From Eubacteriales bacterium (GTDB taxonomy: Bacteria > Bacillota > Clostridia > Lachnospirales > Lachnospiraceae): a stretch of 48,614 nucleotides of DNA. Below, in pieces: positions 6,065-34,582 of the stretch (position 1 is the first letter of the stretch; every line of letters begins with the position of its first letter). Position numbers and translations under genes: made by a program. The stretch spans positions 1-48,614 of the forward strand of contig JAUNJF010000024.1 of assembly GCA_030533405.1 (NCBI GenBank), given 5' to 3'. The notes below the pieces were generated by a model. It did not search any database. It had not been told where the DNA came from and saw nothing but the letters and a program-made list of their open reading frames with translations.

Positions 6065-6112
6065 TATTGTATACTATACATACATTAATTAATAATAAGG
6101 ACGGATAAAAAT

Positions 6113-6763: not shown

Positions 6764-6790
6764 AAAATCTGAGATTTAAGTGATTAGATG

Positions 6791-6824: not shown

Positions 6825-6847
6825 TTTGGTATAATTTGATTTAGATA

Positions 6848-6865
6848 ATTTTGATAATATGGTGC
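6848..6865 (+). repeat. Boundary repeat, class A (degenerate)
   Basis: ATTTTGATAATATGGTGC: the first 13 bases match class A, the CGGGC end is degraded to TGGTGC. It again precedes a small array gene. Confidence 0.4.
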
Positions 6866-6916
6866 AAGGTGGGGTAGTGGATTTTACAATCATGTAGTGT
6901 ATTGAGGAGGCAAAAT

Positions 6917-7462: not shown

Positions 7463-7510
7463 ATAAAACGCAGTGTGTAAGAAAAACAGATTATTTTGAT
7501 TAGATGGTCT

Positions 7511-7530
7511 AGACAAACTTGAATTTGTCT
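7511..7530 (+). terminator. Short perfect hairpin between array genes
   Basis: AGACAAA (7511-7517) and TTTGTCT (7524-7530) with a 6-base loop. No clear T run, so it may be a leader hairpin or weak terminator. Confidence 0.35.
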
Positions 7531-7583
7531 TGCTGATTATAATTTGCTTTTATAATAATTACAACCAGGTTTGGGGATATAAA

Positions 7584-7961: not shown

Positions 7962-7998
7962 CAACTCCCAGCTTGTCGAGTTGGAGAGAGAAAGTTGA

Positions 7999-8015
7999 AT
8001 TTTGATCATTCGGGC
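7999..8015 (+). repeat. Boundary repeat, class A (copy 3)
   Basis: ATTTTGATCATTCGGGC followed by TAAGGAGG, the ribosome site of the next gene. The GGGCTAAGGAG tail is shared with the class-B copy at 2708. Confidence 0.7.
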
Positions 8016-8028
8016 TAAGGAGGTAGCG

Positions 8029-8439
8029 ATGAGCGTATTAAGTGATGAATTGAAGAATGCTATATTAGATGAAGATTTCTATTTGACGAATGACATATTG
8101 GAAAGATTAAAAGCAGAAGAAAACGGCGAGTCATATATTCATGATTTGATGGAGTTTATGAGTGAAAATCCAGCATTAGACTATGGTATGCCAGGACCAA
8201 TAATTCATTTTATAGAATCATATGGAATAGATAAATACATAGATACACTATTAGAGCTAGAAAACAGTAAACCTAATGTGTATTTTAATTGGATGCTTAA
8301 TCGAATAATAAATGTAACCGAGGGTGAACTTAAAGAAAAATATATTAAGATTCTTCAGAATGTTGCTAATAGAACTGATATTGAGCAATATATATGTGAT
8401 GTTGCAAAAGGATTTGTAGAATATCAATTAGAAAACTGA
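8029..8439 (+). CDS. HEAT-like immunity protein (Imm30-like)
   Basis: A 136-residue helical protein. The stretch LDYGMPGPIIHFIESYG, then NWMLNRIIN, is typical of small HEAT-like immunity proteins of the Imm30 type, known from polymorphic toxin loci. ATG at 8029 is 5 bases after AAGGAGG; a TTG at 8002 lies inside the class-A repeat and is not used. Bracketed by class-A repeats on both sides. No partner toxin is visible; the family name is from memory of motif appearance and should be treated as probable only. Confidence 0.6.
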   Translation: MSVLSDELKNAILDEDFYLTNDILERLKAEENGESYIHDLMEFMSENPALDYGMPGPIIHFIESYGIDKYIDTLLELENSKPNVYFNWMLNRIINVTEGELKEKYIKILQNVANRTDIEQYICDVAKGFVEYQLEN

Positions 8440-8451
8440 GATGACAAGCAA

Positions 8452-8468
8452 ATTTTGAGAATACGGGC
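8452..8468 (+). repeat. Boundary repeat, class A (copy 4)
   Basis: ATTTTGAGAATACGGGC, only 6 bases before the class-B copy at 8475, so two boundary sequences sit in tandem with no gene between. Confidence 0.65.
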
Positions 8469-8474
8469 TACCGT

Positions 8475-8501
8475 AAATTCTTATTTTTCAGGGTTGAGGA
8501 G
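8475..8501 (+). repeat. Boundary repeat, class B (copy 2)
   Basis: AAATTCTTATTT, then TTCAGGGTTGAGGAG, which supplies the ribosome site of the hydrolase gene. Confidence 0.65.
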
Positions 8502-8507
8502 ATTTTG

Positions 8508-9473
8508 ATGAAAAGAAAAAATATAAGTACAAATAATGAAATATCAGACTTATTAAGTCTTTCGTTAAATGGATATGAACAAAAAATACTAATAGAAGGG
8601 AAAAGTAGGACACTGCCAGTGGTTATTACTTTGCACGGAGGACCAGGAACACCTATTCCTTTTTCGGTTGGTTGTAGAGGGATATTTCCAGAGTTTACTG
8701 ACAATTTTATTATGGTGTATTGGGACCAATTAGGATGTGGAATTAATAATTGTATTATCGATGATGCTTTTTCAATAGATGATTTTGTAAAAATGACAGA
8801 AGATTTAATTAAGGAAATTAAAAAGAGATTTGCTAATAACAAGATACTGATTTTTTCAACCTCATGGGGGTCAATATTAAGCGCAAAGTTATTGGAAAGA
8901 AATCCGAATGCTGTTGATGGAGTGATTGCTTCGGGACAAATTATAAAAAATGTTTTCTTGTGCGAAGAAGTAATGAATGAATTAGATAAGTCAAAGATTT
9001 CTCGAAAGAAAATGGATAAGATTAGAACTGTCACTGTTGACAATTATTCTGGAAAAGATTTGCAACTAATATCAACATCGTTGCGAAAATATACAAATGC
9101 ATATCAAAATAAGATTGGTTCAAAAGCTCCAATGGGTTCAATTATTAAAGGGTTACTTACAAGCCCTGATTGTAAGTTTAAGGATTTCAAAGCAATTATG
9201 GTAAATGGATATATGAAAAATAATTCGCTCTGGAAAGAAATACTAAGAATTGATTTGTCTGAGATATTGGGAGGTGTAGAAATACCATATCTTTTGTTGC
9301 AGGGCGATACGGATATAGTTGCTTCTACTCAGACAGCAAAAAGTCTTGTAAGTAACTGTAATAATCCTAATTTAAGAATACAAGTGATAAGCAATACTGG
9401 TCATATGCCAGGAGTTGAAATGATGGAAGCATTGATGCGTGTATTAAAAGAAACTGCGGATGTGTTACGATAA
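8508..9473 (+). CDS. Alpha/beta hydrolase, prolyl aminopeptidase-like
   Basis: A 321-residue alpha/beta hydrolase. The oxyanion region HGGPGTP (near residue 46) and the YWDQLGCG segment are typical of the prolyl iminopeptidase group. The nucleophile elbow reads FSTSWGS, that is S-x-S-x-G instead of G-x-S-x-G; acid GDTD and His in NTGHMPG complete the triad. Cytoplasmic: no signal peptide. A lid domain of about 110 residues lies between. GAGGAG 7 bases before ATG. A peptide or ester substrate is likely; the exact one cannot be inferred. Bracketed by class-B repeats. Confidence 0.8.
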   Translation: MKRKNISTNNEISDLLSLSLNGYEQKILIEGKSRTLPVVITLHGGPGTPIPFSVGCRGIFPEFTDNFIMVYWDQLGCGINNCIIDDAFSIDDFVKMTEDLIKEIKKRFANNKILIFSTSWGSILSAKLLERNPNAVDGVIASGQIIKNVFLCEEVMNELDKSKISRKKMDKIRTVTVDNYSGKDLQLISTSLRKYTNAYQNKIGSKAPMGSIIKGLLTSPDCKFKDFKAIMVNGYMKNNSLWKEILRIDLSEILGGVEIPYLLLQGDTDIVASTQTAKSLVSNCNNPNLRIQVISNTGHMPGVEMMEALMRVLKETADVLR

Positions 9474-21512: not shown

Positions 21513-23141
21513 ATGAGAAAGAAATCACTTGCATTATTATTTGCATGCGCATTGACAGTTGGTTCTTTGACCGCATGTGGTGATAAGGTAAACACAGAAA
21601 CAGATCCTGTTGTAACAGAGGAAGCACCTGCATCTACAGAAGAGGTTGTTGACGATCAGGCGGCAGCAGATGAGGTTGCGGCATTAATCGATGCAATCTA
21701 TGTGCAGGAAAGAACAGATGAGACAGACGCACAGTGTGAGGCAGCGAAAAAGGCATGGGATGCTTTGACAGATGCACAGAAGGAATTAGTTGAGGGTGAA
21801 AATGCAGATCCAGATTATTTTGGAAGAGATACTGGTGATGCTTCTTTAGATGATGCATTAAATGCAGATGAGATTGGTGAAAACGAGCTTTTGGTTGTAA
21901 GCTTTGGTACATCATTTAATGGTAGTCGTGCAGAGGATATCGGTGGAATCGAAAAGGCTCTTCAGGCTGAAAACCCAGATTGGGCAGTTCGTAGAGCATT
22001 TACAGCACAGATCATTATTAACCATGTACAGGCAAGAGATGGTGAGAAGATTGATAATATGGATCAGGCATTAGAGAGAGCTGTAAACAATGGCGTTAAG
22101 AATCTTGTGATTCAGCCTACACATTTAATGCATGGTGCAGAGTATGATGAGTTATCTGCAGCAGTTGACAATTATAAGGACAAATTTGATTCTGTTGTAA
22201 TTGCTGAGCCATTACTTGGTCAGGTTGGCGAGGATGCATCGGTAATTAATGAAGATAAGAAGAATGTAGCTGTAGCAATCACAGCAAAGGCTGTTGAGAC
22301 AGCGAACTTTGATTCTTTAGATGCAGCAAAGGAAGATGGAACTGCATTTGTATTTATGGGACATGGTACTTCTCATTCTGCAAAGGTTAGTTACAGCCAG
22401 ATGGCTACACAGATGAAAGAGCTTGGTTATGAAAACGTATTCATCGGTACTGTTGAGGGTGAGCCAGAAGAGACAGCTTGTGAAGAGGTAATCAAGAGCG
22501 TACAGGAAGCTGGATATAAGAAAGTAATTCTTCGTCCACTTATGGTTGTTGCAGGTGATCATGCAAACAATGATATGGCTGGTGAAGACGAAGATTCTTG
22601 GAAGAGCATGTTTGAAGCATCTGGAGCATTTGATAGCGTGGATGCACAGATTGCGGGATTAGGTAGCATTGAAGATGTGCAGAAGATTTATGTTGAGCAC
22701 ACAAAGACTGCAATTGAATCATTGGGTGATGTAAGTGCTGCTACAACTGGTGAAAGCGTTTCTTCTGCTTCTGTGGAAGATGGAACATATAATGCATTAT
22801 TCACAACAGATAGTGGTATGTTTCATGTAAATGAAGCAATGGAAGGACGTGGTACATTAACAGTTGCAGGTGGACAGATGACAATTCATATTGCTTTGAC
22901 ATCTAAAAACATTGTAAACTTGTTTTTAGGAACTGCTGAGGATGCTCAAAAAGATGGTGCACAGTTACTTGAGCCAACTGTAGATGAAATAATATATGCT
23001 GATGGAACAAAAGAGGAAGTATACGGTTTTGATGTTCCAGTTGCTGCTTTAAATCAGGATTTTGATCTTGCATTACTTGGCACAAAGGGAAAATGGTATG
23101 ACCATAAGGTTAGCGTATCAGATCCTCAGAAAGCTGAATAA
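21513..23141 (+). CDS. CbiK-type cobaltochelatase lipoprotein with C-terminal metal/tetrapyrrole-related domain
   Basis: A 542-residue exported protein. The N-terminal signal ends in a lipobox, LTAC with Cys 22, so it should be anchored outside the membrane. After an acidic linker and a small helical stretch, residues about 125-405 are a CbiK sirohydrochlorin cobaltochelatase domain: LLVVSFGTSF, THLMHGAEYDEL (His 204 and 207), FMGHGTSHSA, and RPLMVVAGDHANNDM with the second catalytic His 350. Residues about 425-540 form an extra beta domain (GMFHVNEAMEGRGTLTV, then GKWYDHKV). CbiK is normally cytoplasmic, inserting cobalt in anaerobic B12 synthesis. Placed outside and repressed by cobalamin, this form more likely binds cobalt, or a corrin precursor, for uptake. 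AGGAGG-type site GGAGGAAC upstream. A single-gene transcript. Confidence 0.85.
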   Translation: MRKKSLALLFACALTVGSLTACGDKVNTETDPVVTEEAPASTEEVVDDQAAADEVAALIDAIYVQERTDETDAQCEAAKKAWDALTDAQKELVEGENADPDYFGRDTGDASLDDALNADEIGENELLVVSFGTSFNGSRAEDIGGIEKALQAENPDWAVRRAFTAQIIINHVQARDGEKIDNMDQALERAVNNGVKNLVIQPTHLMHGAEYDELSAAVDNYKDKFDSVVIAEPLLGQVGEDASVINEDKKNVAVAITAKAVETANFDSLDAAKEDGTAFVFMGHGTSHSAKVSYSQMATQMKELGYENVFIGTVEGEPEETACEEVIKSVQEAGYKKVILRPLMVVAGDHANNDMAGEDEDSWKSMFEASGAFDSVDAQIAGLGSIEDVQKIYVEHTKTAIESLGDVSAATTGESVSSASVEDGTYNALFTTDSGMFHVNEAMEGRGTLTVAGGQMTIHIALTSKNIVNLFLGTAEDAQKDGAQLLEPTVDEIIYADGTKEEVYGFDVPVAALNQDFDLALLGTKGKWYDHKVSVSDPQKAE

Positions 23142-23174
23142 TATTTTACCCGAAGTATCCTCGGTTACTTCACA

Positions 23175-23241
23175 AAAGCGAAGCGGAATGTGAAGCATTC
23201 GCTTTAGCATAAAAAATGGGCTTGTGTATAGCCCATTTTTT
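23175..23241. terminator. Terminator region with two hairpins
   Basis: AAAGCGAA (from 23175) pairs with TTCGCTTT (to 23204); then AAAAATGGGCT (23212-23222) pairs with AGCCCATTTTT (23230-23240) followed by T. It separates the convergent chelatase and LysR genes and works both ways. Confidence 0.85.
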
Positions 23242-24173
23242 TACTTTATAGAAAATTCCTTGAATTTTCTATAGGTCTCGTCCACAAGGCACGAGACAAG
23301 ATCCGAACATACGCTGTTTTGTTCTGCTAAAAAGATAGTTTGCCATAATTCTTTTTTTGCTGAATTCCCAATGATGTAGCTGTTAATCATTGGTGTTTGT
23401 AAGTCTAGGAGTGGGATAATCTGCAATTTATGATTTGCCACAAATGGTGCTGCCATATCTGCAGGTAAAAATGTGTAAGTGTCACAACCAAGCAAAAAGG
23501 GAATGACCTTGGAACAGTCATCAATTTCCAGAGCGAATTGGTGGTATTTTGGGAAGAGGTGTCGAATGAATTGTCCAACATCCTGTAGTGCAAAGTTACA
23601 CATGACATAGTTAACGGATAGCAATGCGTCATGGGTGATTCCGTTTTTATATGTAGTGTTTTGGATATCTGTCACCAAAACCAGAGAATCCTGATGGTAC
23701 AACTGACAATGGTAATGTGCTTTTTTTAGTGGAAGATATGTGAATACGACATCCAAGATATCATTTTGTAACTGTTCCAATAGGTGTGATGACAATCCGA
23801 TGGTGATTTTTAATGAATCATCCGGGTTGTTTTTTTGATGCTTTAATATAATAGGTGCCAAATGTCCTTCATAAATGGAGTCGGAAGCACCGATTCGAAG
23901 CTGATTTTTGTATTTGTGAAGTGAGGATAATTCAGACAGTGATGAGTTTGTCAGGTCGACAACTTTATCTGCATAAATACGGAAATGTTCCCCTTCTGGT
24001 GTGAGTTCAACACTGCGGTTTGTACGAGAAAACAGACTGACACCAATCTCTTTTTCTAATTCGTTAATGCGATTGGTAATCGTAGATTGTGCCACAAAAA
24101 GTTGGTTTGCGGTTCTTGTAAAATTCTTTGTATTTGCCAATACCAAAAAGGTTTTTATATTCTCAATATCCAT
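23241..24173 (-). CDS. LysR-family transcriptional regulator
   Basis: A 310-residue LysR regulator: winged helix MDIENIKTFLVLANTKNFTR, TANQLFVAQSTITNRINELE, then the LysR_substrate domain from about residue 90. The start at 24173 has GGAG 7 bases upstream; an upstream extension of 14 codons lacks a site. It is divergent from the citrate-synthase-like gene, the usual arrangement for a LysR target, so it probably regulates that gene in response to a metabolite. Confidence 0.92.
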   Translation of the reverse strand: MDIENIKTFLVLANTKNFTRTANQLFVAQSTITNRINELEKEIGVSLFSRTNRSVELTPEGEHFRIYADKVVDLTNSSLSELSSLHKYKNQLRIGASDSIYEGHLAPIILKHQKNNPDDSLKITIGLSSHLLEQLQNDILDVVFTYLPLKKAHYHCQLYHQDSLVLVTDIQNTTYKNGITHDALLSVNYVMCNFALQDVGQFIRHLFPKYHQFALEIDDCSKVIPFLLGCDTYTFLPADMAAPFVANHKLQIIPLLDLQTPMINSYIIGNSAKKELWQTIFLAEQNSVCSDLVSCLVDETYRKFKEFSIK

Positions 24174-24226
24174 ATGTAGTCTCCTATTATTCGTAAAGTC
24201 GATTATTGTAATCATAATTATTTATT

Positions 24227-24255
24227 TTACAAATAATATATCAAGTGATTATAAT
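24227..24255 (+). promoter_or_regulatory. Promoter of the Re-citrate-synthase-like gene
   Basis: TTACAA (24227-24232), 17-base spacer, TATAAT (24250-24255). The AT-rich stretch just upstream, with GATTATTGTAATC at 24201-24213, is a candidate LysR site. Confidence 0.6.
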
Positions 24256-24327
24256 ACTGTCAAATAGGAGGACCCCTTAGCACTTAGATATTAAATAAGA
24301 GGAACACATTTTAGGAGGAGAATTATT

Positions 24328-25704
24328 ATGCAGGAAATCACACTTAGTAGTAAGACAAATAAATTAGAGCAGGACCCATATCAGTATCAGCTACAATCGG
24401 TAGAGAATCCAGAGTTGTTCCGAGAGATGTTTCCATATACAGAGACACCAAAGATTGCATTTAACTATCGACGTGTACCAGAAAATATGCCAGACGATAT
24501 TTTTATTACGGACACGACATTTAGAGATGGTCAGCAGTCAAGGTCGCCATATACAACGGAGCAGATGGTTCATATTTATAAACTGCTTCACAAATTGGGT
24601 GGACCAAATGGTATGATTCGTCAGACTGAATTTTTTGTCTATTCAGAAAAAGATAGAAAAGCATTGGAAGAATGTCTTGCATTGGGATATGAGTTTCCAG
24701 AATTGACGACATGGATTCGTGCTTCTAAAAAGGATTTTGAGCTGGTGAAATCCATTGGTATTAAAGAGACTGGTATTTTGGTAAGTTGTTCAGATTATCA
24801 TATTTTCCATAAAATGGGACTGACCAGACAGCAGGCCTTGGATAAATACTTGGGAATTGTGGAAATGTGCATTGAGGAAGGTTTGCGACCAAGATGTCAT
24901 TTTGAAGATATTACAAGAGCGGATTTTTATGGATTTGTTGTTCCATTTGCGAATCGTTTGATGGAAATGTCAGAGAAAAGTGGTGTGCCAATTAAGATTC
25001 GTGCTTGTGATACGATGGGATTTGGTGTGCCATATCCAGGAGTTGCGTTGCCTAGAAGTGTTTCTGGTATCATTTATGGATTACAGCATTATTCAGGTGT
25101 TCCTTCTGAAATGTTAGAGTGGCATGGACATAATGATTTTTATAAGGGTGTTGTCAATGCAACAACTGCATGGATGTATGGAGCAAGTGCAGTAAACTGT
25201 TCGTTGTTAGGAATTGGCGAGCGTACTGGTAATGTGCCTGTCGAGGCGATGGTCTTCGAATATGCTTCTCTAAGAGGTCATACGAACGGAATGGATACAA
25301 GAGTGATTACAGAAATTGCGGAATATATTAATAAGGAAACAGGATATGATATTCCGCCAATGACACCATTTGTTGGTGAGAATTTCAATGTAACCAGAGC
25401 TGGTATTCATGCGGATGGTATGATGAAAAATCAGGAGATTTATAACATTTTTGATACGGAACATATATTAAATCGTTCTGCAAAAGTGGGCATAACAAAT
25501 ACATCAGGAGTAGCAGGTATTGGATATTGGGTAAATGAATATTTGCGTAAAAAGGATATGCAGCCTGTGGAAAAAACACATCCATTGGTACAAAAGCTGT
25601 ATGCATGGGTGCAGGAAGAATATGATGGTGGTCGTGTGACGATGATTAGTGACGGTGAGTTGGAAAAAATGATGTTTGCCAACTGGGATTTGTTGGAGAA
25701 ATAG
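24328..25704 (+). CDS. Re-type citrate synthase-like enzyme (DRE-TIM metallolyase)
   Basis: A 458-residue enzyme of the isopropylmalate/homocitrate synthase superfamily: TDTTFRDGQQSRSPYTTEQ (catalytic Arg and metal Asp), IRACDTMGFGVPYPGVALP, and WHGHNDFY (metal His pair). The closest resemblance is to the Clostridium kluyveri type of Re-citrate synthase, which shares the leading PKIAFNYRRVPENMP segment and lacks the leucine regulatory domain of LeuA. It would condense acetyl-CoA and oxaloacetate to citrate for glutamate synthesis in anaerobes without the Si enzyme. GGAGGAG 8 bases before ATG. Aconitase and isocitrate dehydrogenase are not in the window, so the assignment rests on sequence alone. 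Confidence 0.85.
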   Translation: MQEITLSSKTNKLEQDPYQYQLQSVENPELFREMFPYTETPKIAFNYRRVPENMPDDIFITDTTFRDGQQSRSPYTTEQMVHIYKLLHKLGGPNGMIRQTEFFVYSEKDRKALEECLALGYEFPELTTWIRASKKDFELVKSIGIKETGILVSCSDYHIFHKMGLTRQQALDKYLGIVEMCIEEGLRPRCHFEDITRADFYGFVVPFANRLMEMSEKSGVPIKIRACDTMGFGVPYPGVALPRSVSGIIYGLQHYSGVPSEMLEWHGHNDFYKGVVNATTAWMYGASAVNCSLLGIGERTGNVPVEAMVFEYASLRGHTNGMDTRVITEIAEYINKETGYDIPPMTPFVGENFNVTRAGIHADGMMKNQEIYNIFDTEHILNRSAKVGITNTSGVAGIGYWVNEYLRKKDMQPVEKTHPLVQKLYAWVQEEYDGGRVTMISDGELEKMMFANWDLLEK

Positions 25705-25763
25705 TATTTTTGATTCCTATAAAGTATGATATGATAAATATATCAAAATTTTAGGAGGCTGTT

Positions 25764-27374
25764 ATGGGATTAATGGAGAGACCAGCTGTCAGCACATTAG
25801 CTGACGGAGGAAAATATTGGGAGCATACATACGAAAAATTTTATTTGAAAACATATGTGCCAGCAAATGAGATTGATGGACAAATCAATAATTATACATT
25901 TCGAGCACCTTTGTTGTTGGTGTTTGAAGAGCATAAACAGAGTATGGAAGATGCTATTGCATTTGCGAAGGAAAGTGGACTGAGTAATATTGCAGCAGCG
26001 GTAGATGCGAGTGTGCTATTTATTTATCCAACAAATGAAGGCGGATGGAGCAAGGCAACAGAGGAGCTATTTGCATCTGTAATTGCTGAGGTAAAGATGG
26101 ATCCACGTTTCGAGGATGGAATCTGTAAAATCGATGATTTCTTTACACATGAATTCCAAGGTTATTTTATTAAAGGTGCAAAGTTTAGAACGGATATTTA
26201 CAGCTATGGTGCGTCTGCAGATTATGTGGCTAAGCATTTGCTGAAGACTTTGCAGGGAGAATATTTATGGGGGCCGGGCGAAATTACACCAGCAATGTGT
26301 TCTATGGAGAATTTAAGCATTGTGCCAGAAGTGGAACGCAAGGATATTGCAATTTTAAGTGTTGGTAATTCAGCCGAAATAAATGCAGCATTTCAGGGAT
26401 GTGAGAACCTTTTGGTAAAGGAACAGGCAGATTATGAAGAGGATTTCAAGTCTTTTGTTCGTAAGTTTAAAATGTGGTGTGGGAATATTCAAATTGAGCC
26501 AGATTTTGATGAAATGTATATGACAGAAGAAGCAGGAAGTATTGTTGTGAAAACATCTGCCGATAATCGTAGTGATGTGAAGGATTTAGAGTCACATAAG
26601 GTTGGATATTTTGCGTACTATAATCATGATGCATTTGAAAATGGACCGGTTCCATTGCTTGTAGGTTTCCATGGTGGTGGTGATTCATCTATGTTTTTAA
26701 CATTTGTTTCAGGATGGTATGAGATTGCACACAAGTATGGATTTTTATATGTTGCATTGGAGAATCATCAATTTGTGACTGCTACAGAGGCAGCACAGTT
26801 TGTTGAGGAGTTGAAGAAACGATATAACATTGACGAAAGTCGAATTTATGCAACGGGATTTTCTATGGGAAGCGGAAAAACATGGGATATGTTCCAGGAA
26901 TATCCAGAAATGTTTGCGGGTATTGCACCAGCAAGTGCGTTGTTCCCAGTAAAGGATAACCCGTTAGGACAATCACATGGTGAAAGAATGAACATGGATG
27001 TACCAGTTCCGATTTTTTATTCAGGTGGTGAGGATTCACCATTGCCAGAATTGCCATTTCAGCATGCGTCCACAATTGAAAGAATTCAGTATGCTGCGAA
27101 GGTGAATCAGTGTAAAGCACAGTTTGATATCACATTTGAGGATAAAGAAAACTGGGCACATCCAATTTGGGGAATAGCTGGTGATCGTGTTGAAAAAATA
27201 TATGATGAGACTAGAGACAGCTATTTGACGATTCATTATTATGATAGCGAAGATGGTGTTTGCAGAACAGCATTTGCGAGTGTTAGCGGACAGGGGCATG
27301 AGTGTAGACAGCATACCTGTGAACAAGCATGGAAATTTATTTCTCAATTTACAAGGGAACATAATAAACAATAG
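25764..27374 (+). CDS. Alpha/beta hydrolase, PHB-depolymerase-like esterase
   Basis: A 536-residue protein without a signal peptide. The N-terminal 250 residues are a poorly defined domain; the C-terminal half is an alpha/beta hydrolase of the PHB depolymerase/feruloyl esterase group: [12 protein letters not shown] (oxyanion), [18 protein letters not shown] with nucleophile Ser 367, [10 protein letters not shown], and His near the end (SGQGHECR). Substrate unknown; an acyl ester is likely. TTAGGAGG 8 bases before ATG. Follows the citrate-synthase gene by 59 bases, perhaps with its own promoter. Confidence 0.8.
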
Positions 27375-27515
27375 GTATATGATGGATTGTATCAAAGAAA
27401 ATAATTTGGTTTTTGAACGGTTTTTCTTTATATAATTAGGTTTTTACTTTAGAAAATAATGTTATTTCAAAAATTGTTGCTAATCGAGATAGATTATGAT
27501 ATAAGGTACATGAGC

Positions 27516-27551
27516 AAAGGAGTTCACTTCATAGAGGTGGACTCTTTTTTT
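27516..27551 (+). terminator. Terminator after the esterase gene
   Basis: AAAGGAGTTCAC pairs, with one bulge and one wobble, with GTGGACTCTTT, then a T run. Confidence 0.7.
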
Positions 27552-27558
27552 AGAAAAC

Positions 27559-27592
27559 AAAGGCGTTTTGCAGGGTGCAGAGCGCCTTTTTT
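27559..27592 (+). terminator. Second terminator in tandem
   Basis: AAAGGCG (27559-27565) pairs with CGCCTTT (27583-27589), followed by T. It isolates the next operon from upstream transcription. Confidence 0.65.
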
Positions 27593-27640
27593 CTATAGAA
27601 AATAATGGATATGACATTTTGAGAAAGGAGTTGTGTTATT

Positions 27641-28960
27641 GTGAAACATTTAGAATTGCTAGAACATACAGATACGGTGAATGAATTGTTGGCGAGATAT
27701 GGTGTAAAGTTTGGAATTTATAAAAATAATGTGTTTAATGAACAATTATTTCCTTTTGATGCAATTCCAAGAATAATTGAAAAAGATGAATTTTCTTATC
27801 TGGAAAAAGGGTTAAAGCAGCGTGTGCTTGCATTAAATATATTTTTGAAGGATATCTATTCGAAAAAACAAATTGTCAGAGATGGCGTTGTACCAGAGGA
27901 TTTTATTTTTGCGTCGAGCGGATACATGGTGGAGTGCGAGGGCGTGTCACCTGTAAAGGATGTTTATTCACATATTTCAGGAATTGATCTTGTTAAGGGA
28001 AAAGATGAAAATTGGTATATTTTGGAAGATAATTTGCGAGTGCCATCAGGAGCATCTTATCCGATGATTGCCAGAGATCTTTGTAGACGTTCTTCACCGG
28101 GAACGTTTACAGATTTGAAGATAGAGGACAATCGTAATTATGCACAGTTACTTCGACGAACGTTTGACAATGTAAATGTAGGTGGACACACGGTTATTTT
28201 GACTCCCGGTCGTTATAATGCCGCTTACTTTGAGCATAGTTACCTTGCTGAACAGACAGGTGCACATTTGGTAAATGGCTCTGAGCTGATTGTGAAGGAT
28301 GATAAATTGTATTTTATTACGGCGGACGGTAAGTATGAACGTGTAGGTGCAGTTTATCGACGTATTTCCGATGAGTATTTGGACCCGATGAATTTCAATC
28401 CGGAGTCGCTTATTGGAATTCCACATATCTATGATGTATTCCGAAAAGGAAATGTTGCCTTGTTGAATGCACCTGGAAATGGTGTGGCAGATGATAAAGG
28501 AATCTATTATTTTGTGCCGAAAATGATCAAGTATTATTTGAACGAAGAACCGATTCTTTCAAATGCGCCAACCTATTTACCATTTTATGAAGATGATTAT
28601 AAATATGTGATAGATCATTTTGATGATTTAGTATTAAAGGATGTTGCAGAGGCTGGCGGTTATGGTGTTGTATTTGGTAACAGTATGACCAAGGAGCAAA
28701 AGAAAAATTTCTTAGCTTTGTTAGAGAAAGAACCAAGAAGGTTTATCGCACAGGAAGTGATTGATTTTCAGGATATTGATATTTTAGAAGGTGGAGAAAT
28801 GCTACCAAGAAAAGCGGATTTGCGTGCTTTTGTATTGATGGCGGATGAGCCGTTAGTATGGAAGAGTGGTTTGACAAGATTTTCGAGAAACCCGGATTCA
28901 TTTATTGTGAATTCATCACAGGGAGGAGGATTTAAAGATACATGGGTATTATATCAGTAG
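27641..28960 (+). CDS. Circularly permuted ATP-grasp protein
   Basis: A 439-residue protein of the circularly permuted ATP-grasp type (former DUF404/DUF407). Marks include LKQRVLALNIFLKDIYS, WYILEDNLRVPSGASYPM, LTPGRYNAAYFEHSYLA, DLVLKDVAEAGGYGVVFG and RKADLRAFVLM. This family is predicted to form amide bonds between amino acids or peptides with ATP. The start is GTG at 27641 with AAAGGAG 10 bases upstream. It leads an operon with an alpha-E protein (19-base overlap) and a transglutaminase-fold protein, the classic trio. Confidence 0.92.
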   Translation: MKHLELLEHTDTVNELLARYGVKFGIYKNNVFNEQLFPFDAIPRIIEKDEFSYLEKGLKQRVLALNIFLKDIYSKKQIVRDGVVPEDFIFASSGYMVECEGVSPVKDVYSHISGIDLVKGKDENWYILEDNLRVPSGASYPMIARDLCRRSSPGTFTDLKIEDNRNYAQLLRRTFDNVNVGGHTVILTPGRYNAAYFEHSYLAEQTGAHLVNGSELIVKDDKLYFITADGKYERVGAVYRRISDEYLDPMNFNPESLIGIPHIYDVFRKGNVALLNAPGNGVADDKGIYYFVPKMIKYYLNEEPILSNAPTYLPFYEDDYKYVIDHFDDLVLKDVAEAGGYGVVFGNSMTKEQKKNFLALLEKEPRRFIAQEVIDFQDIDILEGGEMLPRKADLRAFVLMADEPLVWKSGLTRFSRNPDSFIVNSSQGGGFKDTWVLYQ

Positions 28961-29604
28961 AACAGGCAGATCGCCTATATTGGCTTGGTCGATATACGGA
29001 ACGAGTTTATACAACATTAAATATTTTTTCAAAAAGCTTTGACCATTTGATTGATGGAATGGTAGATAGCTATGTTGGTTTTTGTGAGAGTATTGATATT
29101 CCTAATATATATGCGGATAAGGAGGATTTTGTAAACAGTTATCCGTTTGATGTGAATAATACAGATTCTATCATCAGCAATTTGAATCGAGCATATGATA
29201 ATGCAATTATGTTGCGAGAGAGTATCGGATCGGAGACATTGGCATTTATTCAGTTGGCTATCTATGACATGAATAAAGCTGCAAAGAGTAAAGCACCGAT
29301 GATTGAGTTACAAAAGGTAAATGATAACTTGCTTGCATTTTATGGAACAGTGGATGATCAAATTGACAGTGAAAATGTAAGAAATATTATCAAGGCTGGA
29401 AAGCGGATTGAAAGAATTGATATGTATGCAAGACTTGGTGTTTCGAAAGAGGAATTAACGAGAGAAGTATTTCGTATGATTCCAAGAGTAGAGAGAAGTG
29501 GATTAGATTACGATGAGAGAAAATTGGTAAATTTAAAGGAACTTGTTGAACAAGATGTGCTTGATTACTATGAAATCGTAAAAGAAGTCGAATCCATTTT
29601 GTAA
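28942..29604 (+). CDS. Alpha-E domain protein
   Basis: A 220-residue all-helical protein of the alpha-E family (DUF403): ADRLYWLGRYTERVYTTLNIF at the start, IMLRESIGSETLAFIQLAIYD in the middle. It partners circularly permuted ATP-grasp proteins; its exact role is unknown. The gene overlaps the upstream stop by 19 bases behind GGAGGAGG, indicating translational coupling. Confidence 0.9.
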   Translation: MGIISVEQADRLYWLGRYTERVYTTLNIFSKSFDHLIDGMVDSYVGFCESIDIPNIYADKEDFVNSYPFDVNNTDSIISNLNRAYDNAIMLRESIGSETLAFIQLAIYDMNKAAKSKAPMIELQKVNDNLLAFYGTVDDQIDSENVRNIIKAGKRIERIDMYARLGVSKEELTREVFRMIPRVERSGLDYDERKLVNLKELVEQDVLDYYEIVKEVESIL

Positions 29605-29621
29605 AAAAGGAGGCGAGTGAT

Positions 29622-30410
29622 ATGCGTAAGCTTCACTTTACCTACGAGATGCAAATTGAATATTCTATCGATGTTGCAAGATGTAATTTTACGATTAAAT
29701 GTTGTCCCCAAAACACAGCTCGTCAAAGGCTAGAGGATGTTAATGTGCAGTTGTTTCCTGCGACGACATACTGCACAGGTGTGGATGGACTACAGAATAA
29801 GCAAATATATGGTGTCAATGAATTGCCGCATAAAATCTTTCGCTTTCAAACGGATGGAACGGCGTATACAGGACTATGTGACTATGAAGAAATCGTAAAT
29901 GAGGATTATGCAATGATTTTTCGACATCCGCATGGTTTAAACCAGGCGGGTGTTGGAATTATGGATTTTTATGAGAAGCATAAGCCAGATTCGGGATTGT
30001 CTGTATATGAGAAGGCACAGTATTTTATGCATCTTTTGCACGCAAAGTTTTCGTACCAGCCATGTACAACGGATGTAGATACAACCGCAGAGGATGCTTT
30101 TGTGCAGGGACATGGTGTGTGTCAGGACTATGCACATATTTTTATTTCATTGATGCATTTATCCAATATTCCTGCAAGGTATGTTACAGGTTTGATTGTG
30201 GGAGAGGGAGCCAGTCATGCCTGGGTAGAAGTATTGTGTGATGATAAATGGTATGGATTTGATCCAACAAACGAAAAAATGGTGGTAGATGAGCATATAA
30301 AGATTGGTGTTGGAAGAGACGCTAAGGATTGCATGATTAATCGAGGGATTATGCATGGAGGGGGCCTTCATACGCAAATCATAAAAGTAAATGTAAAAGA
30401 CTGTCTATAA
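29622..30410 (+). CDS. Transglutaminase-like cysteine peptidase/amidase
   Basis: A 262-residue protein: an N-terminal beta domain (FTYEMQIEYSIDVARCNF) and a transglutaminase core with intact triad Cys 167 (HGVCQDYAH), His 199 (ASHAWVEV) and Asp 214 (GFDPTN). Bacterial members next to ATP-grasp and alpha-E proteins are thought to cleave or transfer the peptide product. No signal peptide, so it acts in the cytoplasm. AAAAGGAGG 10 bases upstream; 17 bases after the alpha-E stop. Confidence 0.9.
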   Translation: MRKLHFTYEMQIEYSIDVARCNFTIKCCPQNTARQRLEDVNVQLFPATTYCTGVDGLQNKQIYGVNELPHKIFRFQTDGTAYTGLCDYEEIVNEDYAMIFRHPHGLNQAGVGIMDFYEKHKPDSGLSVYEKAQYFMHLLHAKFSYQPCTTDVDTTAEDAFVQGHGVCQDYAHIFISLMHLSNIPARYVTGLIVGEGASHAWVEVLCDDKWYGFDPTNEKMVVDEHIKIGVGRDAKDCMINRGIMHGGGLHTQIIKVNVKDCL

Positions 30411-30430
30411 TAGTAGGAGGACAAAAAACG

Positions 30431-31378
30431 ATGATAAAAACAGTAGCATCTGTCGGACTTCCAGTGGACGAAGTGCTAGCGATAAAGAAAAGAAGAATAC
30501 AGCCAGAAAACAAGAAAAAGGGCATGAAGAGAATCAGTGTTGTTACTGGCATTCATGGAGATGAACTAGAGGGGCAATATGTATGTTTTGAAGTTGCCAG
30601 AAAAATTGAAGAAGAAAAAGAGAAATTGGCTGGTATTGTAGATATATATCCAGCAATGAATCCACTTGGTATTGATTCTATTACGAGAGGAATTCCAGCA
30701 TTTGATTTGGACATGAATCGTTTATTTCCAGGAAATATAGATGGAAACATGACTGAATATTTGGCTGCAGAGATTATGAAGGATGTTTCTGGGTCAGACC
30801 TTGTAATCGATATACATGCGAGTAATATCTATTTGACGGAAATTCCGCAGATACGAATTAATGAATTACATGAGGATACATTGGTACCATTTGCAGAAAA
30901 AGCGAATGTAGATTTTGTTTGGGTACATGGGGCAAGCACGGTATTAGAGTCAACCTTTGCATATAGCTTAAATAGTACGGGAACACCTTGTCTGGTTGTG
31001 GAGATGGGTGTTGGTATGAGAATTACAAAAGAGTATGGTGATCAGTTAGTAGATGGTATTTTTCACCTTATGGAGGAGTTGGGAATTTGGAATGGAAAAA
31101 CGAGTGAGCCACGCAAACCAATTATTTCAAAGAATCCAGATGATGTCAGTTATTTGAATGCAAGTGTTGGCGGATTATTTATTCCCAAAGTACGGCATTG
31201 GGAAACCTTGAAAAAGGGAGAATTAATCGGACAGATTATTGATCCATTGAGTGGAAAAGTGTTGGATGATGTGCTGTCGCCAGTTGATGGTATTTTATTC
31301 ACGATTCGAGAGTATCCAATTGTAGATGAGGGATCGCTTGTTGGAAGACTTCTTCGCAAGGAGGCATATGAGAAATGA
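30431..31378 (+). CDS. AstE/aspartoacylase-like M14 deacylase, intact
   Basis: A 315-residue zinc carboxypeptidase-fold protein of the succinylglutamate desuccinylase/aspartoacylase group. Zinc ligands His 42 and Glu 45 (TGIHGDELEG) and His 129 (VIDIHAS) are present, as are the substrate-binding FDLDMNRLFPG and catalytic Glu 191 (VVEMGVG). The C-terminal 90 residues form the usual beta domain (VGGLFIPKVRHWE). It should remove an acyl or aminoacyl group from an amino acid or peptide. It lies 20 bases after the transglutaminase gene with AGGAGG, and overlaps the next gene by 4 bases. Confidence 0.9.
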   Translation: MIKTVASVGLPVDEVLAIKKRRIQPENKKKGMKRISVVTGIHGDELEGQYVCFEVARKIEEEKEKLAGIVDIYPAMNPLGIDSITRGIPAFDLDMNRLFPGNIDGNMTEYLAAEIMKDVSGSDLVIDIHASNIYLTEIPQIRINELHEDTLVPFAEKANVDFVWVHGASTVLESTFAYSLNSTGTPCLVVEMGVGMRITKEYGDQLVDGIFHLMEELGIWNGKTSEPRKPIISKNPDDVSYLNASVGGLFIPKVRHWETLKKGELIGQIIDPLSGKVLDDVLSPVDGILFTIREYPIVDEGSLVGRLLRKEAYEK

Positions 31379-32307
31379 AAAAAAGAACAATATATGAAAT
31401 AAAAGGTTTATATAGAGATAATTTTCGTGTGACGGGATATGAATTTGGTAAGGGCAAGAAGAGTGTGTGTATTGTGGGTACGATGCGTGGAAATGAAGTG
31501 CAACAGTTGTATTGTTGTTCGCAGCTGGTGAAAAAAATGAAGCAGTTAGAAGCAGAGGGAAGAATTTCTCCAGGGCATAAGATTTTAATTATTCCAAGCT
31601 GTAATCCATATTCACTAAATATTCAAAAGCGTTTTTGGCCAATTGATAATACAGATATCAATCGAATGTTTCCAGGTTATGATTTGGGAGAAACAACACA
31701 GCGAATTGCGGATGGAGTATTTAAAGAAATAATGGATTATGCGTATGGTATTCAGTTTACATCATTTTATATGCCGGGTGAATTTATGCCACATGTACGA
31801 ATGATGGATGAGGGATATAGTAAGGTGGAGACCGCGTTAAAATTTGAAATGCCATATGTTGTTGTGCGTAAGGTGCGACCATATGATACAGCAACATTAA
31901 ATTACAATTGGCAGGTTTGGGATACGCAGGCATTTAGTTTTTACACGACTACCACGACAACCATTGATCGCAAATCTGCTGGGCAATCTGTGTTGAGTGT
32001 TATGAAATTTTTATCCGCACTTGGAATTGTGAAATATCAGTCAGGAAGTAGTAAGAAGGAATCGGTTGTGGTATCGGATACCGAAATGGTGAGCGTGCGA
32101 ACAGCGAAATCCGGTATTTTCGAACCACTTGTTCATGTTGGGGATGATATTGGTGAGGGAACCCCACTTGCTAATATTGTGCATCCTTATGATGGTGAGA
32201 TTATGGAAACGTTGTATGCACCAGTTGATGCCAAAGTATTTTTTATGCATACAGATCCACTGACCTATGCCAATACAGCGGTATTTAAATTGGTGGAAAA
32301 GGAATAA
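31375..32307 (+). CDS. AstE-like M14 paralogue lacking zinc ligands
   Basis: A 310-residue paralogue of the preceding protein with the same architecture, including DINRMFPG and the C-terminal beta domain (KSGIFEPLVHVGDDIGEG). The ligand motif HGDE has become MRGNE, with Arg 38 for His; the second ligand motif VIDIHAS has become GIQFTSF, with Thr 129 for His; and the catalytic Glu segment reads SFYTTTTTTID. All three active elements are lost, so hydrolysis is improbable. It starts at ATG overlapping the upstream TGA by 4 bases. A pseudoenzyme partner that binds the intact paralogue or the substrate is the likeliest role. Confidence 0.85.
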   Translation: MKKRTIYEIKGLYRDNFRVTGYEFGKGKKSVCIVGTMRGNEVQQLYCCSQLVKKMKQLEAEGRISPGHKILIIPSCNPYSLNIQKRFWPIDNTDINRMFPGYDLGETTQRIADGVFKEIMDYAYGIQFTSFYMPGEFMPHVRMMDEGYSKVETALKFEMPYVVVRKVRPYDTATLNYNWQVWDTQAFSFYTTTTTTIDRKSAGQSVLSVMKFLSALGIVKYQSGSSKKESVVVSDTEMVSVRTAKSGIFEPLVHVGDDIGEGTPLANIVHPYDGEIMETLYAPVDAKVFFMHTDPLTYANTAVFKLVEKE

Positions 32308-32311
32308 CCAA

Positions 32312-33616
32312 ATGAATTATCAAAAGAAAAGAAAAATACAAATTCCGGGTATTGGAATGCGTATCATAAAATCTGCAGTTGCAATCCTGATTTGTTATAT
32401 GGTGAACATTTTACGAGGCGGCCATGGGATGGTGTTCTATTCCCAACTGGCAGCCTTGTGGTGTGTTCAGATGTATCGAAGCAATACAAAAAAGAACGCA
32501 ATACAACGTACGATAGGAACCGTTATTGGTGCATGTTACGGATTACTATATTTATTGATTTATCCCAAGCTGATTTATCCGTGTCAAAATGTTGAAGTGG
32601 CGGAGGCATTTGTTATTTCCGTGGCAATTGTGTTGGTTTTATATACAACGGTTATACTAAAAAAGCAGCAATCGTCTTATTTTTCTTGTGTTGTTTTTTT
32701 AAGCATTGTGGTAAATCATGTCAGTGATGGAAATCCATATTTGTTTGTGTGGAATCGTTTTTTAGATACCATGATCGGAATCGTAGTAGGCATTACGGTA
32801 AATGATGTTCGTCTATGTTTGCATCCTGACAGGAACACATTGTTTATCTCTGGATTGGATGACACATTGTTAAATAAAGAAGAGGTGCTAAGTGCGTTTA
32901 GTAAAGTTGAGTTAAATCGAATGATAGATAATGGTATGCGGTTTACAGTATCTACGATGCGAACGCCAGCTGCATTACTAGAACCGATGCGAGATATTCG
33001 ATTGAAATGGCCGGTCATTGCAATGGATGGTGCAGTGTTGTACGATACGCAAAAACATTCGTATTTACGTGTTTATGTGATATCGTCAAAAACATCGCAA
33101 AGACTTATGCAAAGAATGATAGAAGAAAATATATGCTGGTATGCAAATGTGATTATTGATGATTTGCTGGTCATTTACTACGGAGAAATGGTTGACCGTA
33201 CCAATTTAAATATGATAGAAGAACTTCGGACATCACCTTTTCGAAATTATGTAAGGCGTCCTTTACCACAAAATGAGGATGTTACATATTTTATGCTGCT
33301 AGATCAGGTGGATAAAATTGCATTTTTCTATGAAATCTTAAAGCAGGAGGGATATACCAATGAGTTGAAGATTATTACATATCCATCCCAGGATTATCCT
33401 GGATATGCATATATTAAAATTTATAACAAAAATGCAACCAAAGAAAATATGATTCGGTATTTAAAAGAAATGACCAATAGTGAAAATGTTGTGACATTTG
33501 GAACAATACCAGGTCAGTATGACGTGCTGATTCATGAAGATAATGCAAATGAAGTGGTTCGGAAGGTGCGAAAAATGTATGAACCAATGATTGTGAAAAC
33601 AAAGAGTGTAAAATGA
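32312..33616 (+). CDS. FUSC-type membrane domain fused to degenerate HAD domain
   Basis: A 434-residue protein. Residues 14-165 hold about four to five membrane helices like an aromatic acid exporter/FUSC half (IIKSAVAILICYMVN, IQRTIGTVIGACYGLLYLLI). From residue 176 a Cof-type HAD domain follows: LFISGLDDTLLNKEEVLS, FTVSTMRTPAALLEPM, VIAMDGAVLYD. In active HADs this reads DxDGT; here it is G-L-D-D-T, so the nucleophile Asp is Gly 181. The C-terminal third contains the usual cap and EVVRKVRKMYEPM. ATG at 32312 follows AAAAGGA by 8 bases. It may export or sense the operon's product. Confidence 0.8.
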   Translation: MNYQKKRKIQIPGIGMRIIKSAVAILICYMVNILRGGHGMVFYSQLAALWCVQMYRSNTKKNAIQRTIGTVIGACYGLLYLLIYPKLIYPCQNVEVAEAFVISVAIVLVLYTTVILKKQQSSYFSCVVFLSIVVNHVSDGNPYLFVWNRFLDTMIGIVVGITVNDVRLCLHPDRNTLFISGLDDTLLNKEEVLSAFSKVELNRMIDNGMRFTVSTMRTPAALLEPMRDIRLKWPVIAMDGAVLYDTQKHSYLRVYVISSKTSQRLMQRMIEENICWYANVIIDDLLVIYYGEMVDRTNLNMIEELRTSPFRNYVRRPLPQNEDVTYFMLLDQVDKIAFFYEILKQEGYTNELKIITYPSQDYPGYAYIKIYNKNATKENMIRYLKEMTNSENVVTFGTIPGQYDVLIHEDNANEVVRKVRKMYEPMIVKTKSVK

Positions 33617-33620
33617 AAAT

Positions 33621-33651
33621 AAGAGAATATGTGATTTTCACATATTCTCTT
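33621..33651. terminator. Perfect hairpin between convergent genes
   Basis: AAGAGAATATGTGA (33621-33634) and TCACATATTCTCTT (33638-33651), 14 base pairs with a 3-base loop. The right arm is also the end of the fructokinase coding sequence. No clean T run. Confidence 0.6.
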
Positions 33652-34582
33652 GAATATCTTGTATGGTTGGCATTACTTTTAATGCTCCTTTTTTGGTTGT
33701 AATCAGTGCTGAGGCGACGCTTGCAAAATGAAGCATCTCTTCTAGTAATGCTCTGTTCAAACACGCAAGACCATGTTCTAGTACATAATAAAGTACACAT
33801 GCCATATAAGTATCTCCAGCCCCTGTTGTTTCAATGGTATCTGGTCTGGCAATGCCTTTGCCAGTAATTTTGATGTCCTTATATAATACAATACTTCCTT
33901 CTTTTCCGAGTGTGACACATATCAAGGTTGGTTGATATTGTTTGCGGAATGCAATAATGGCTTCTTCGATGGTGTCTTTTTCGGTAAAGAAAAGGATTTC
34001 ATCATCAGCGATTTTTAATATATCACATTGTGCAAATCCATATGCCATCATTTTCTTTGCGGTATCCGGATTATCCCATAAAAGGGGTCTGTAGTTGGGG
34101 TCGAACGAAAGCAAAAGTCCTTGCTCTTTCGCATAAGAAATTGCCTTTTTTGTTGCTTGTCGTACACCGTCATGTGTCATTGATAAGGTCCCAAAATGAA
34201 AAATACTGGCATTCGCAATCTGTTTAAAATCAATCTCATCTTCTCGTAGCAACATATCAGCACCTGGATCACGATAAAAAGAAAAACTTCGATCACCATC
34301 TTTGGCTGTATGTACAAATGCTAACGTTGTGTGTGCACTTTCATCTTTGATTAAATTCGATGTATCAATACCACAATCTTTAATAGTCTGTTCTAGATAA
34401 TCGCCGAAAGAATCTTTCCCTACCTTACCAATAAAGGCAGTCTTTTTTCCCAAGTTTTGAAGCATGGCTAAAACATTACATGGTGCTCCGCCTGGATTTG
34501 CTTCTAATATGGGGTTTCCGTTTTCGCTGATTCCATTTTCCGTGAAGTCAATTAATAATTCTCCGAGTGCAATTACATCCAT
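33638..34582 (-). CDS. PfkB-family fructokinase
   Basis: A 314-residue ribokinase-fold sugar kinase: ALGELLIDFTENG, NPGGAPCNVLAML, FYRDPGADMLL, FDPNYRPLLW and the catalytic ETTGAGDTYMACVLYYV. This pattern is that of fructokinases, giving fructose 6-phosphate with ATP. GGAGG 8 bases before ATG. The AGE-family isomerase gene lies upstream on the same strand, so the pair could convert mannose to fructose and then to fructose 6-phosphate. A 93-base structured repeat lies between them. Confidence 0.9.
   Translation of the reverse strand: MDVIALGELLIDFTENGISENGNPILEANPGGAPCNVLAMLQNLGKKTAFIGKVGKDSFGDYLEQTIKDCGIDTSNLIKDESAHTTLAFVHTAKDGDRSFSFYRDPGADMLLREDEIDFKQIANASIFHFGTLSMTHDGVRQATKKAISYAKEQGLLLSFDPNYRPLLWDNPDTAKKMMAYGFAQCDILKIADDEILFFTEKDTIEEAIIAFRKQYQPTLICVTLGKEGSIVLYKDIKITGKGIARPDTIETTGAGDTYMACVLYYVLEHGLACLNRALLEEMLHFASVASALITTKKGALKVMPTIQDIQENM

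Follow-up and report, generated by a model that had tools for sequence, protein, structure and literature searches.

A stretch of 48,614 nucleotides from a Lachnospiraceae bacterium (GenBank assembly GCA_030533405.1, contig JAUNJF010000024.1; the whole stretch is called the window here) carries on its plus strand five adjoining genes for a circularly permuted (CP) ATP-grasp ligase (27641..28960), a short alpha-E protein (28942..29604), a transglutaminase-like protein (29622..30410) and two AstE/AspA-type M14 proteins, the zinc hydrolase M14a with a complete active site (30431..31378) and its inactive paralogue M14i (31375..32307). These five genes, here called the cassette, are, judged by their sequences and order, one old inherited unit in Clostridia, which we did not recognise as described in the literature searched. 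The conclusion that the cassette has a leader hairpin in common with nitrogen genes is well supported, and this nitrogen link is the strongest functional clue found and our main new result. We propose that the cassette is probably a nitrogen-regulated unit for the ligation and trimming of amino acids, a reading to which we give a probability of roughly 0.55.

A leader hairpin ahead of the cassette

The operon starts with tandem terminator-type hairpins, which look like its own leader. In the window, a putative promoter-like site found by eye (TTGCTA, 17 nt, TATAAG; 27477..27505, plus strand) is expected to start transcription near 27512; a promoter scan missed this site, as G is disallowed there as the last base of the second hexamer. 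Hairpin 1 (AAAGGAGTTC...GGACTC followed by a T-run, 27516..27548) and hairpin 2 (AAAGGCGTTT...GAGCGCCTTT followed by a T-run, 27559..27589) lie on the same strand and were both found by the leader pattern. They match our covariance model R1, of which they are themselves rows, with 40.5 bits (E 2.7e-6) and 48.7 bits (E 2.5e-8), respectively. Hairpin 1 was also found among the predicted folds, and the fold of the window leader has a z-score of -6.6. The arms AAAGGCGTTC and GRRCGCCTTT are conserved in many cassettes, and in many of them the hairpin lies tens of bases after a promoter-like site, as judged by eye.

The leader was surveyed in 80 cassette loci, the best 80 of 587 obtained when named genomes were scanned with the ATP-grasp protein; they include near relatives (L067 and L068 come from one isolate, and L144 and L118 appear to be contigs of genomes G007 and G048). 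With at most two mismatches allowed per arm, the pattern found the hairpin in the 350 nt ahead of the ATP-grasp gene in 48 of the 80 loci. This corresponds to 56 hits in 27,478 bases, or about 2 per kb, versus 0.03 per kb elsewhere in the loci, an approximately 60-fold difference in density. Those other parts (1,384,728 bases) gave 35 plus-strand and 58 minus-strand hits, and 10 and 9 with a reversed-pattern control. The covariance model was run on all 32 loci without a pattern hit there, and pattern and model together resolved 21 of them, L112 only just (E 0.04). These comprise 8 in which the pattern had already placed the hairpin ahead of an upstream co-directional ABC or FUSC gene, and 13 found by the model at either place (9 and 4), so that 69 of the 80 loci have a leader.

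In an alignment of 43 rows, 98.7% of the cells pair, with 58 two-sided changes versus 11.6 in shuffles. Selecting the rows by the pattern favours the outer pairs, and the same alignment supplied the structure. Because the three inner pairs, which lie outside the collecting pattern, also show two-sided changes (16, 12 and 15), we conclude that the pairing is real. A terminator-type hairpin with GCAAAGAAG or GAAAGAAG was seen by eye at the same place in five operons of the heliobacterial form of the cassette described below; the model, applied to six such operons, matched three of them weakly (L195, 25.0 bits; L204, 23.9 bits; L205, 19.8 bits). No Rfam family scored above its gathering threshold in positions 23000-34500 of the window, and none matched the leader in ten loci of the regulon described below; the best sub-threshold leader match reached 23.2 bits versus a gathering score of 115. 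The literature searched holds nothing on this leader. The sole Rfam match in the ten regulon loci is a 6S RNA gene (L262, 2224-2408), which lies near an ABC transporter gene with a leader hairpin.

The leader is shared with nitrogen genes

A strict form of the pattern gave 12 hits in six genomes (reversed control, 1), with 0-6 per genome. These hits precede the cassette, an ABC operon, glutamine synthetase III and PII-AmtB, and also lie at three other places in genome G000. For the whole-genome tally the pattern was replaced by the covariance model, which gave at least 89 rows at E ≤ 0.01 in 28 genomes, and at least 51 rows in 48 transcription units at E ≤ 0.001. The 48 units comprise 12 cassettes, several of them the model's own training loci, 9 glutamine synthetase genes, 5 ABC operons, 3 GltB genes, 4 Amt or PII genes, and one each of PurF, CarA, CTP synthase and citrate synthase. 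Cassettes or nitrogen and glutamine genes therefore account for 37 of 48 units, or for 25 of 36 when the cassettes are left aside (150 candidates scored per genome).

The 38 rows with E between 0.001 and 0.01 were partly identified and left out of these counts. Among them are a further six glutamine synthetase III genes, one being that of the window genome itself, together with an MFS transporter gene, other genes without a clear nitrogen link and gene-free stretches. The window genome has leaders at the cassette, at citrate synthase (E 1.1e-4), at glutamine synthetase III (E 0.0023) and at a Mem_trans permease (E 0.0088). Through the leader, the clostridial cassette ties its first three genes, the trio, to a nitrogen and glutamine regulon, and the hairpin looks like a Lachnospiraceae nitrogen switch outside Rfam. 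As a separate observation, locus L238 carries two tandem glutamine synthetase III-like genes of 703 amino acids (4348-6459 and 6670-8781) with near-identical starts and a leader hairpin between them.

Conservation of the five-gene unit

Six genes at 27641-33616 had been predicted from the window's letters and assigned to families, and both the six same-direction open reading frames across this span and the Pfam matches agree. The ligase matches PF14403 (CP_ATPgrasp_2) with 445 bits and PF04174 with 412 bits; the alpha-E protein (220 amino acids) matches PF04168 with 77 bits over profile positions 6-167 of 294; the transglutaminase-like protein matches PF01841 (Transglut_core) with 69 bits; and M14a and M14i match PF24827 (AstE_AspA_cat, cut-off 25) with 88 and 37 bits, respectively. 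The sixth gene (32312..33616, plus strand) encodes a FUSC/ArAE_1 membrane domain (FUSC_2, 49 bits) joined to a HAD domain (Hydrolase_3, 66 bits). The junctions are, in order, an overlap of 19, gaps of 17 and 20, an overlap of 4 and a gap of 4 bases, in agreement with the predicted spacing of at most 20 bases. The last junction is counted from the ATG at 32312, which is preceded by AAAAGGA and is most likely the start of gene 6; an alternative ATG at 32267 would give an overlap of 41. At the threshold used, none of the five core proteins shows a hydrophobic segment, and all look cytosolic. A bidirectional terminator-like hairpin from the hairpin scan (33620..33652) stands at the end of the unit.

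The gene order of the cassette is far beyond chance. Among 98 relatives, which include the window's own genome, the alpha-E gene occurs in 16, and in all 16 it is followed by M14a and then M14i in the same order. The contig of G021 does not reach the ATP-grasp gene, those of G004 and G009 end within it, and M14i of G006 is broken into two pieces. In a sample of the class, alpha-E occurs in 12 of 391 genomes; the window genome aside, the five genes are complete in 10 of 11, and the eleventh cassette ends with its contig inside M14a. Wherever the contigs of the 80 loci leave room, alpha-E comes next to the ligase (77/77), the transglutaminase gene is there in 75 of 76 (absent in L119), and M14a (74/74) and M14i (70/70) are always present. 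The original prediction that the last three genes are linked to the trio thus stands for M14a and M14i, and holds only in part for gene 6, which lies near the cassette in 24 of the 80 loci.

In a sample of the phylum, alpha-E was found in 9 of 398 genomes, namely the window, two clostridial cassettes already counted, G723 (L198), two genomes of family f156, and L193, L194 and L197. A search centred on f156, which appears to be Heliobacteriaceae, found alpha-E in 7 of 82 genomes. The trio is joined by two M14 genes in 6 of 6 alpha-E genomes of this family, and in the seventh alpha-E genome of the search (G897) the contig ends at the transglutaminase gene. By these gene contents, f156 has a sister form of the cassette with a longer alpha-E protein. 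In a further observation, six horse-gut loci titled Saccharofermentans or Clostridia (L070, L071, L072, L075, L078 and L080) encode ATP-grasp proteins 88-89% identical to that of the window. The genomes of L070 and L080 appear to be G295 and G421, which belong to another family, f66, so that horizontal transfer is suggested.

Trio enzymes and the M14 pair

The CP-ATP-grasp protein, strongly conserved in sequence and matching PDB 3n6x with 371 bits, is predicted to be an ATP-dependent amide-forming ligase, and it contributes the only ligase-type domain that Pfam finds across the unit. Its presumed partner, the alpha-E protein, is a short form compared with the 294-position Pfam profile and has no PDB relative by sequence at E ≤ 1. 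Each residue of the transglutaminase triad (Cys167, His199 and Asp214 in the window) is present in 89 of 89 sequences.

An intact AstE-like deacylase followed by an inactive paralogue had been predicted, and the residues bear this out. In M14a, H42, E45, D94, N96, R97, H129 and E191 are each conserved in 89 of 89 sequences, and the HxxE, H, E and DxNR features expected of PF24827 members are all there. It aligns to PDB 2qj8 over residues 35-298 of 315. All NCBIfam models that it matched give scores below their cut-offs, the best among the equivalog models for succinylglutamate desuccinylase, aspartoacylase and DoeB being 55.5 bits versus 402.7. M14i, in contrast, matches PF24827 although both histidine metal ligands and the catalytic glutamate are gone: the first histidine is arginine in 85 of 86 sequences (one X), the second is threonine, alanine, serine or proline in all 86, and the catalytic glutamate aligns to tyrosine in 17 of 17 clostridial M14i rows of a joint alignment. 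The first glutamate is kept in 85 of 86 (one X), and D94, N96 and R97 in all 86. The HEDNRHE string of an active enzyme is thus replaced by REDNRTY in the window and by REDNR[TAV]Y in clostridial M14i. From its residues, clostridial M14i is best described as a conserved pseudoenzyme that retains the DxNR substrate clamp. The retention of this clamp without catalysis suggests a binding or regulatory role. A decaying pseudogene was considered and rejected because of this conservation and a low nonsynonymous divergence (dN) from L066, 0.092 for M14i and 0.100 for M14a, with saturated synonymous divergence and hence rough ratios. The M14 pair are the sole PF24827 genes found in genomes G000, G009, G013 and G723.

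The six second copies in the heliobacterial form (M14b) read HEDNRHM, with a whole metal site and methionine in place of the catalytic glutamate, so the two groups differ in how far the active site is degraded. That M14i and M14b are one old lineage is a weak conclusion. The M14i profile favours M14b, with mean scores of 157 bits versus 87 for M14a and 81 for heliobacterial M14a, and the two share the stretch TDINRMFPGY..GETTQRIAD. The reverse comparisons speak against a common lineage: the M14b profile does not favour M14i (134 bits, versus 145 for M14a and 141 for heliobacterial M14a), and the M14a profile scores M14b at 159, above M14i at 89. In the tree the M14a lineage has support of 100/99, whereas M14i and M14b group with 81/34 on a long stem, which also weighs against it.

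Gene 6 and other neighbours

Gene 6 (FUSC-HAD) is a satellite of the cassette. It was tried as a fixed sixth member and rejected, since it occurs in the fetched stretch of 24 of the 80 loci, in four of them as the FUSC half only, and at variable positions: directly downstream in 5, directly upstream in 13 (including the four FUSC halves), one gene away in 1 and at a distance of 4-5 kb in 5. It is absent from 35 loci with at least 4 kb on both sides and from 21 on shorter contigs. The two nevertheless co-occur strongly, with both in 9 of the 98 relatives, FUSC-HAD only in 8, the cassette only in 7 and neither in 74 (Fisher p 1e-4; within the genus p 0.003; neither p-value corrected for kinship). 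A genome was taken as a carrier if its two-domain match reached 170 bits, which gave 17 carriers, and the partial matches of G005, G014 and G015 were scored as non-carriers. As part of the operon, gene 6 is therefore borne out in a minority of loci; elsewhere it stands alone or accompanies citrate synthase-IDH genes or an ABC operon of the acidic amino-acid type.

The hydropathy segments of gene 6 are confined to its N-terminal part. The motif I aspartate of Cof-type HAD phosphatases is absent in the window's protein, which has glycine at this nucleophile position; among 32 relatives, linked to a cassette or not, the position is glycine in 26, aspartate in 4 and asparagine in 2. FUSC-HAD comes last in an ABC operon with a cytidylate-kinase-like gene in L240 (G476) and L049 (G056), and both operons have the leader. 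The best model for the binding protein of the ABC operon is aspartate/glutamate-binding, at 174 bits and below the cut-off of 373. In five horse-gut loci the order is citrate synthase, IDH, FUSC-HAD and cassette; in L051, L055 and L145 an IDH gene lies between M14i and FUSC-HAD, and in L054 FUSC-HAD is near genes for citrate lyase alpha and an aconitase-type hydratase. A second-copy IDH gene adjoins M14i in G013 (C66, 17004-18209) and G004 (C155, 1326-2516), the other copy being elsewhere in each genome. Separately, a large protein with a PPDK_N-type ATP-binding domain was observed with a leader hairpin in G004 and G209, and behind FUSC-HAD in a third genome (L240, 932-3511; L266; L270).

Two further genes of the window lie upstream of the leader. 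The first (24328-25704) encodes an HMGL-like enzyme whose top NCBIfam match is homocitrate synthase (155 bits versus a cut-off of 463); it may be a citrate-type synthase, and would then match the recurrence of citrate synthase genes. The second (25764-27374) encodes an esterase-like protein of 536 amino acids with very weak alpha/beta-hydrolase Pfam matches, none at 1e-3. Both were rejected as parts of the system, as neither has a match beside the cassette in the 80 loci; the sole exception is a weak, partial HMGL-like match (28%) in L126.

Proposed function and alternative explanations

In the function that we propose, nitrogen limitation would let transcription read through the leader terminators. 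The ATP-grasp protein, with alpha-E as its partner, would spend ATP to join an amino acid to a carboxyl group of a small molecule, peptide or protein. The added amino acid would most likely be glutamate or a relative, judging from the neighbours and the families. The transglutaminase-like cysteine enzyme would work on the resulting amide, M14a would take off the terminal acidic residue, and M14i may hold the same end uncut, either to read it or to regulate its partner M14a. FUSC-HAD would be an optional membrane partner, probably an organic-anion exporter or sensor. The observation of six genes that led to this work is confirmed, and its interpretation as a pathway that makes, trims and moves a small amide or peptide is partly supported. 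More tentatively, the module may tail a target with glutamate-like residues and trim it back, with the ATP-grasp protein as writer, M14a as eraser and the dead M14 protein as reader, in nitrogen starvation and under an undescribed terminator-type leader RNA switch common to the glutamine regulon of the family, and be the Firmicute counterpart of the Anbu operon; we put this well below an even chance. Tubulin polyglutamylation, by TTLL ligases and M14 carboxypeptidases, is the system with which we compared this writer and eraser arrangement.

Several observations weigh against a nitrogen-regulated ligation and trimming unit. By pattern or model, 11 of the 80 loci have no leader hairpin at the expected places (L067, L070, L095, L100, L103, L104, L106, L117, L138, L140 and L143); L138 has about 160 nt of upstream sequence, and L103 matches 1.5 kb upstream. 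L193, L194 and L197, from other genomes of the phylum, have the trio with no M14 gene detected within the 16-17.5 kb fetched. The genome tally used a model trained on cassette leaders, with rough E-values, and scored only 150 of the roughly 870-3400 candidates in each genome; 11 of the 48 units at E ≤ 0.001 are non-nitrogen genes or no gene. The ABC units of G459, G936 and G937, three of the five, appear to continue into the cassette and are thus not independent of it. In eight cassette-free genomes, nitrogen genes stand in 8 of 14 units, which points to a wider element that the cassette shares. The two-hairpin targets of ANTAR proteins have hexanucleotide loops with A1 and G4; the leader loops vary in length and sequence (alignment A3). 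The glutamine synthetase genes that were inspected have no neighbour recognised by eye as an ANTAR gene, and no ANTAR domain search was made.

The hairpins could also be mere terminators of the preceding gene, in a terminator style general to Lachnospiraceae. Their shape fits this, and loose matches to bidirectional terminators are common: of the 58 minus-strand hits, 44 are turned towards an opposite gene and 7 lie ahead of some other gene. Among the 35 plus-strand hits that are not in ATP-grasp leaders, 16 have no gene on their own strand in the next 350 nt. The other 19 plus-strand hits, however, which lie in stretches fetched around cassettes, precede ABC genes (8 hits in 5 loci), citrate synthase (6 in 4) and FUSC-HAD (5 in 3). 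Many hairpins are seen by eye just past promoter-like sites, the strict pattern gives 0-6 hits in each of six genomes, nitrogen genes make up most of the genome-search results, and the hairpins are concentrated about 60-fold ahead of the ATP-grasp gene; we consider a pure terminator role very improbable. A role in remodelling peptidoglycan or other envelope peptides would agree with the Mur ligase genes found in 7 of 93 loci (L090, L105, L111, L125, L129, L135 and L142), on either side and either strand, two of them confirmed by Pfam, and these genes count against our nitrogen reading to that extent. It would also agree with the distantly similar rlo set, for which the available text of PMC12239564 gives effects on osmotic tolerance and cell shape in Pseudomonas aeruginosa. 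The Mur ligases, however, are separated from the cassette by about 2 kb or more, and the core proteins look cytosolic and lack hydrophobic segments, so that we see little chance for an envelope function.

Nitrogen storage, in which a peptide or polymer is built and then mobilised by M14a, would explain why ligase and hydrolase stand together in one unit and why the leader is shared with glutamine synthetase and glutamate synthase genes. Pfam nevertheless shows a single ligase-type domain in the unit, and the Burkholderia trio is, in the available text of PMC5491218, induced under nitrogen limitation, the wrong direction for building a store; storage is improbable in our view. Protein tagging as supposed for Anbu, with the M14 pair replacing Anbu and removing or reading the tag, is an analogy that we consider possible but on balance unlikely, slightly more so than the tailing of a target outlined above. 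The families and order of the trio are those of the Anbu operon (available text of PMC6376114 and PMC5666114). Klebsiella record L183 lists an ATP-grasp protein, a transglutaminase and a proteasome-type protease; its table has no entry at the place of alpha-E. Of 27 cassette genomes, several of them incomplete, 26 have no proteasome-family gene over the cut-off, and M14 enzymes would be plausible erasers of C-terminal residues. Against tagging, the neighbours of the cassette suggest small-molecule nitrogen metabolism, and no target protein was identified. The studied AstE-type M14 enzymes, moreover, act on small N-acyl amino acids. We therefore prefer nitrogen-regulated ligation and trimming as the function of the cassette.

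Comparison with known systems

The M14a protein is a member of the AstE/AspA/DoeB deacylases (PF24827; PDB 6twm, 3cdx and 2qj8) with all catalytic residues, although it remains under the NCBIfam cut-offs, whereas M14i is without both histidine ligands and the catalytic glutamate. The RimK-RimB system of ribosomal S6 polyglutamylation resembles the cassette in combining an ATP-grasp writer with a linked hydrolase as eraser, as far as the available text of PMC11957791 and PMC12239564 goes. It differs in that RimB is a retropepsin-like protease and not an M14 enzyme, and in that the cassette ligase is circularly permuted and not RimK. The three top-listed plasmid relatives of heliobacterial M14b, from the unrelated bacteria Phaeobacter, Salinivibrio and Acaryochloris (L222, L223 and L224), lie directly behind rimK; three other AstE-type records that were fetched do not. 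The arrangement of rimK with an AstE-type M14 gene is a second pairing of an ATP-grasp glutamate ligase with such an enzyme. The rlo operon of P. aeruginosa likewise brings together an ATP-grasp protein (RloC), a transglutaminase-fold protein (RloB) and a protease (RloA). According to the available text of PMC12239564, RloC is likened to RimK (24% identity), RloB is an inactive membrane transglutaminase and RloA a secreted aspartic protease, and the three genes include neither alpha-E nor M14.

The closest counterpart is the Anbu operon, credited to Iyer et al. 2009 in the available text of PMC5666114 and PMC6376114, which consists of ATP-grasp, alpha-E, transglutaminase and Anbu genes. The same parts of these papers set out hypotheses of tagging and of peptide synthesis, note that the ATP-grasp protein releases phosphate and cite a hint of nitrogen starvation in Pseudomonas putida, and no confirmed function is reported there in either structural study. 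An M14-bearing form of the trio was not recognised in the literature searched, much of it available in part; Iyer et al. 2009 is outside that coverage and may mention M14 neighbours. Pfam finds no Anbu in the window operon, and PF00227 exceeds its cut-off in one of 27 cassette genomes, on another contig, with one more match below the cut-off.

In Burkholderia cenocepacia, the trio cluster I35_5080-83 is listed as NtrC-dependent (-6.0 to -9.4 fold; available text of PMC5491218), and a CP_ATPgrasp gene with a predicted RpoN site appears in the available part of PMC13207237. The Burkholderia trio is thus reported under NtrC/sigma54 control, whereas the clostridial cassette has the leader hairpin instead, and these unlike control elements in two phyla both point to nitrogen. 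The cassette and the Anbu operon agree in their first three families, in the order of these and in forming one operon, which in Pseudomonas putida and Burkholderia cenocepacia is nitrogen-responsive in the sources cited. They differ in the short alpha-E protein of Clostridia and in the active and inactive M14 pair, which would occupy the slot of Anbu in Proteobacteria and appears to be a second hydrolase solution in its place.

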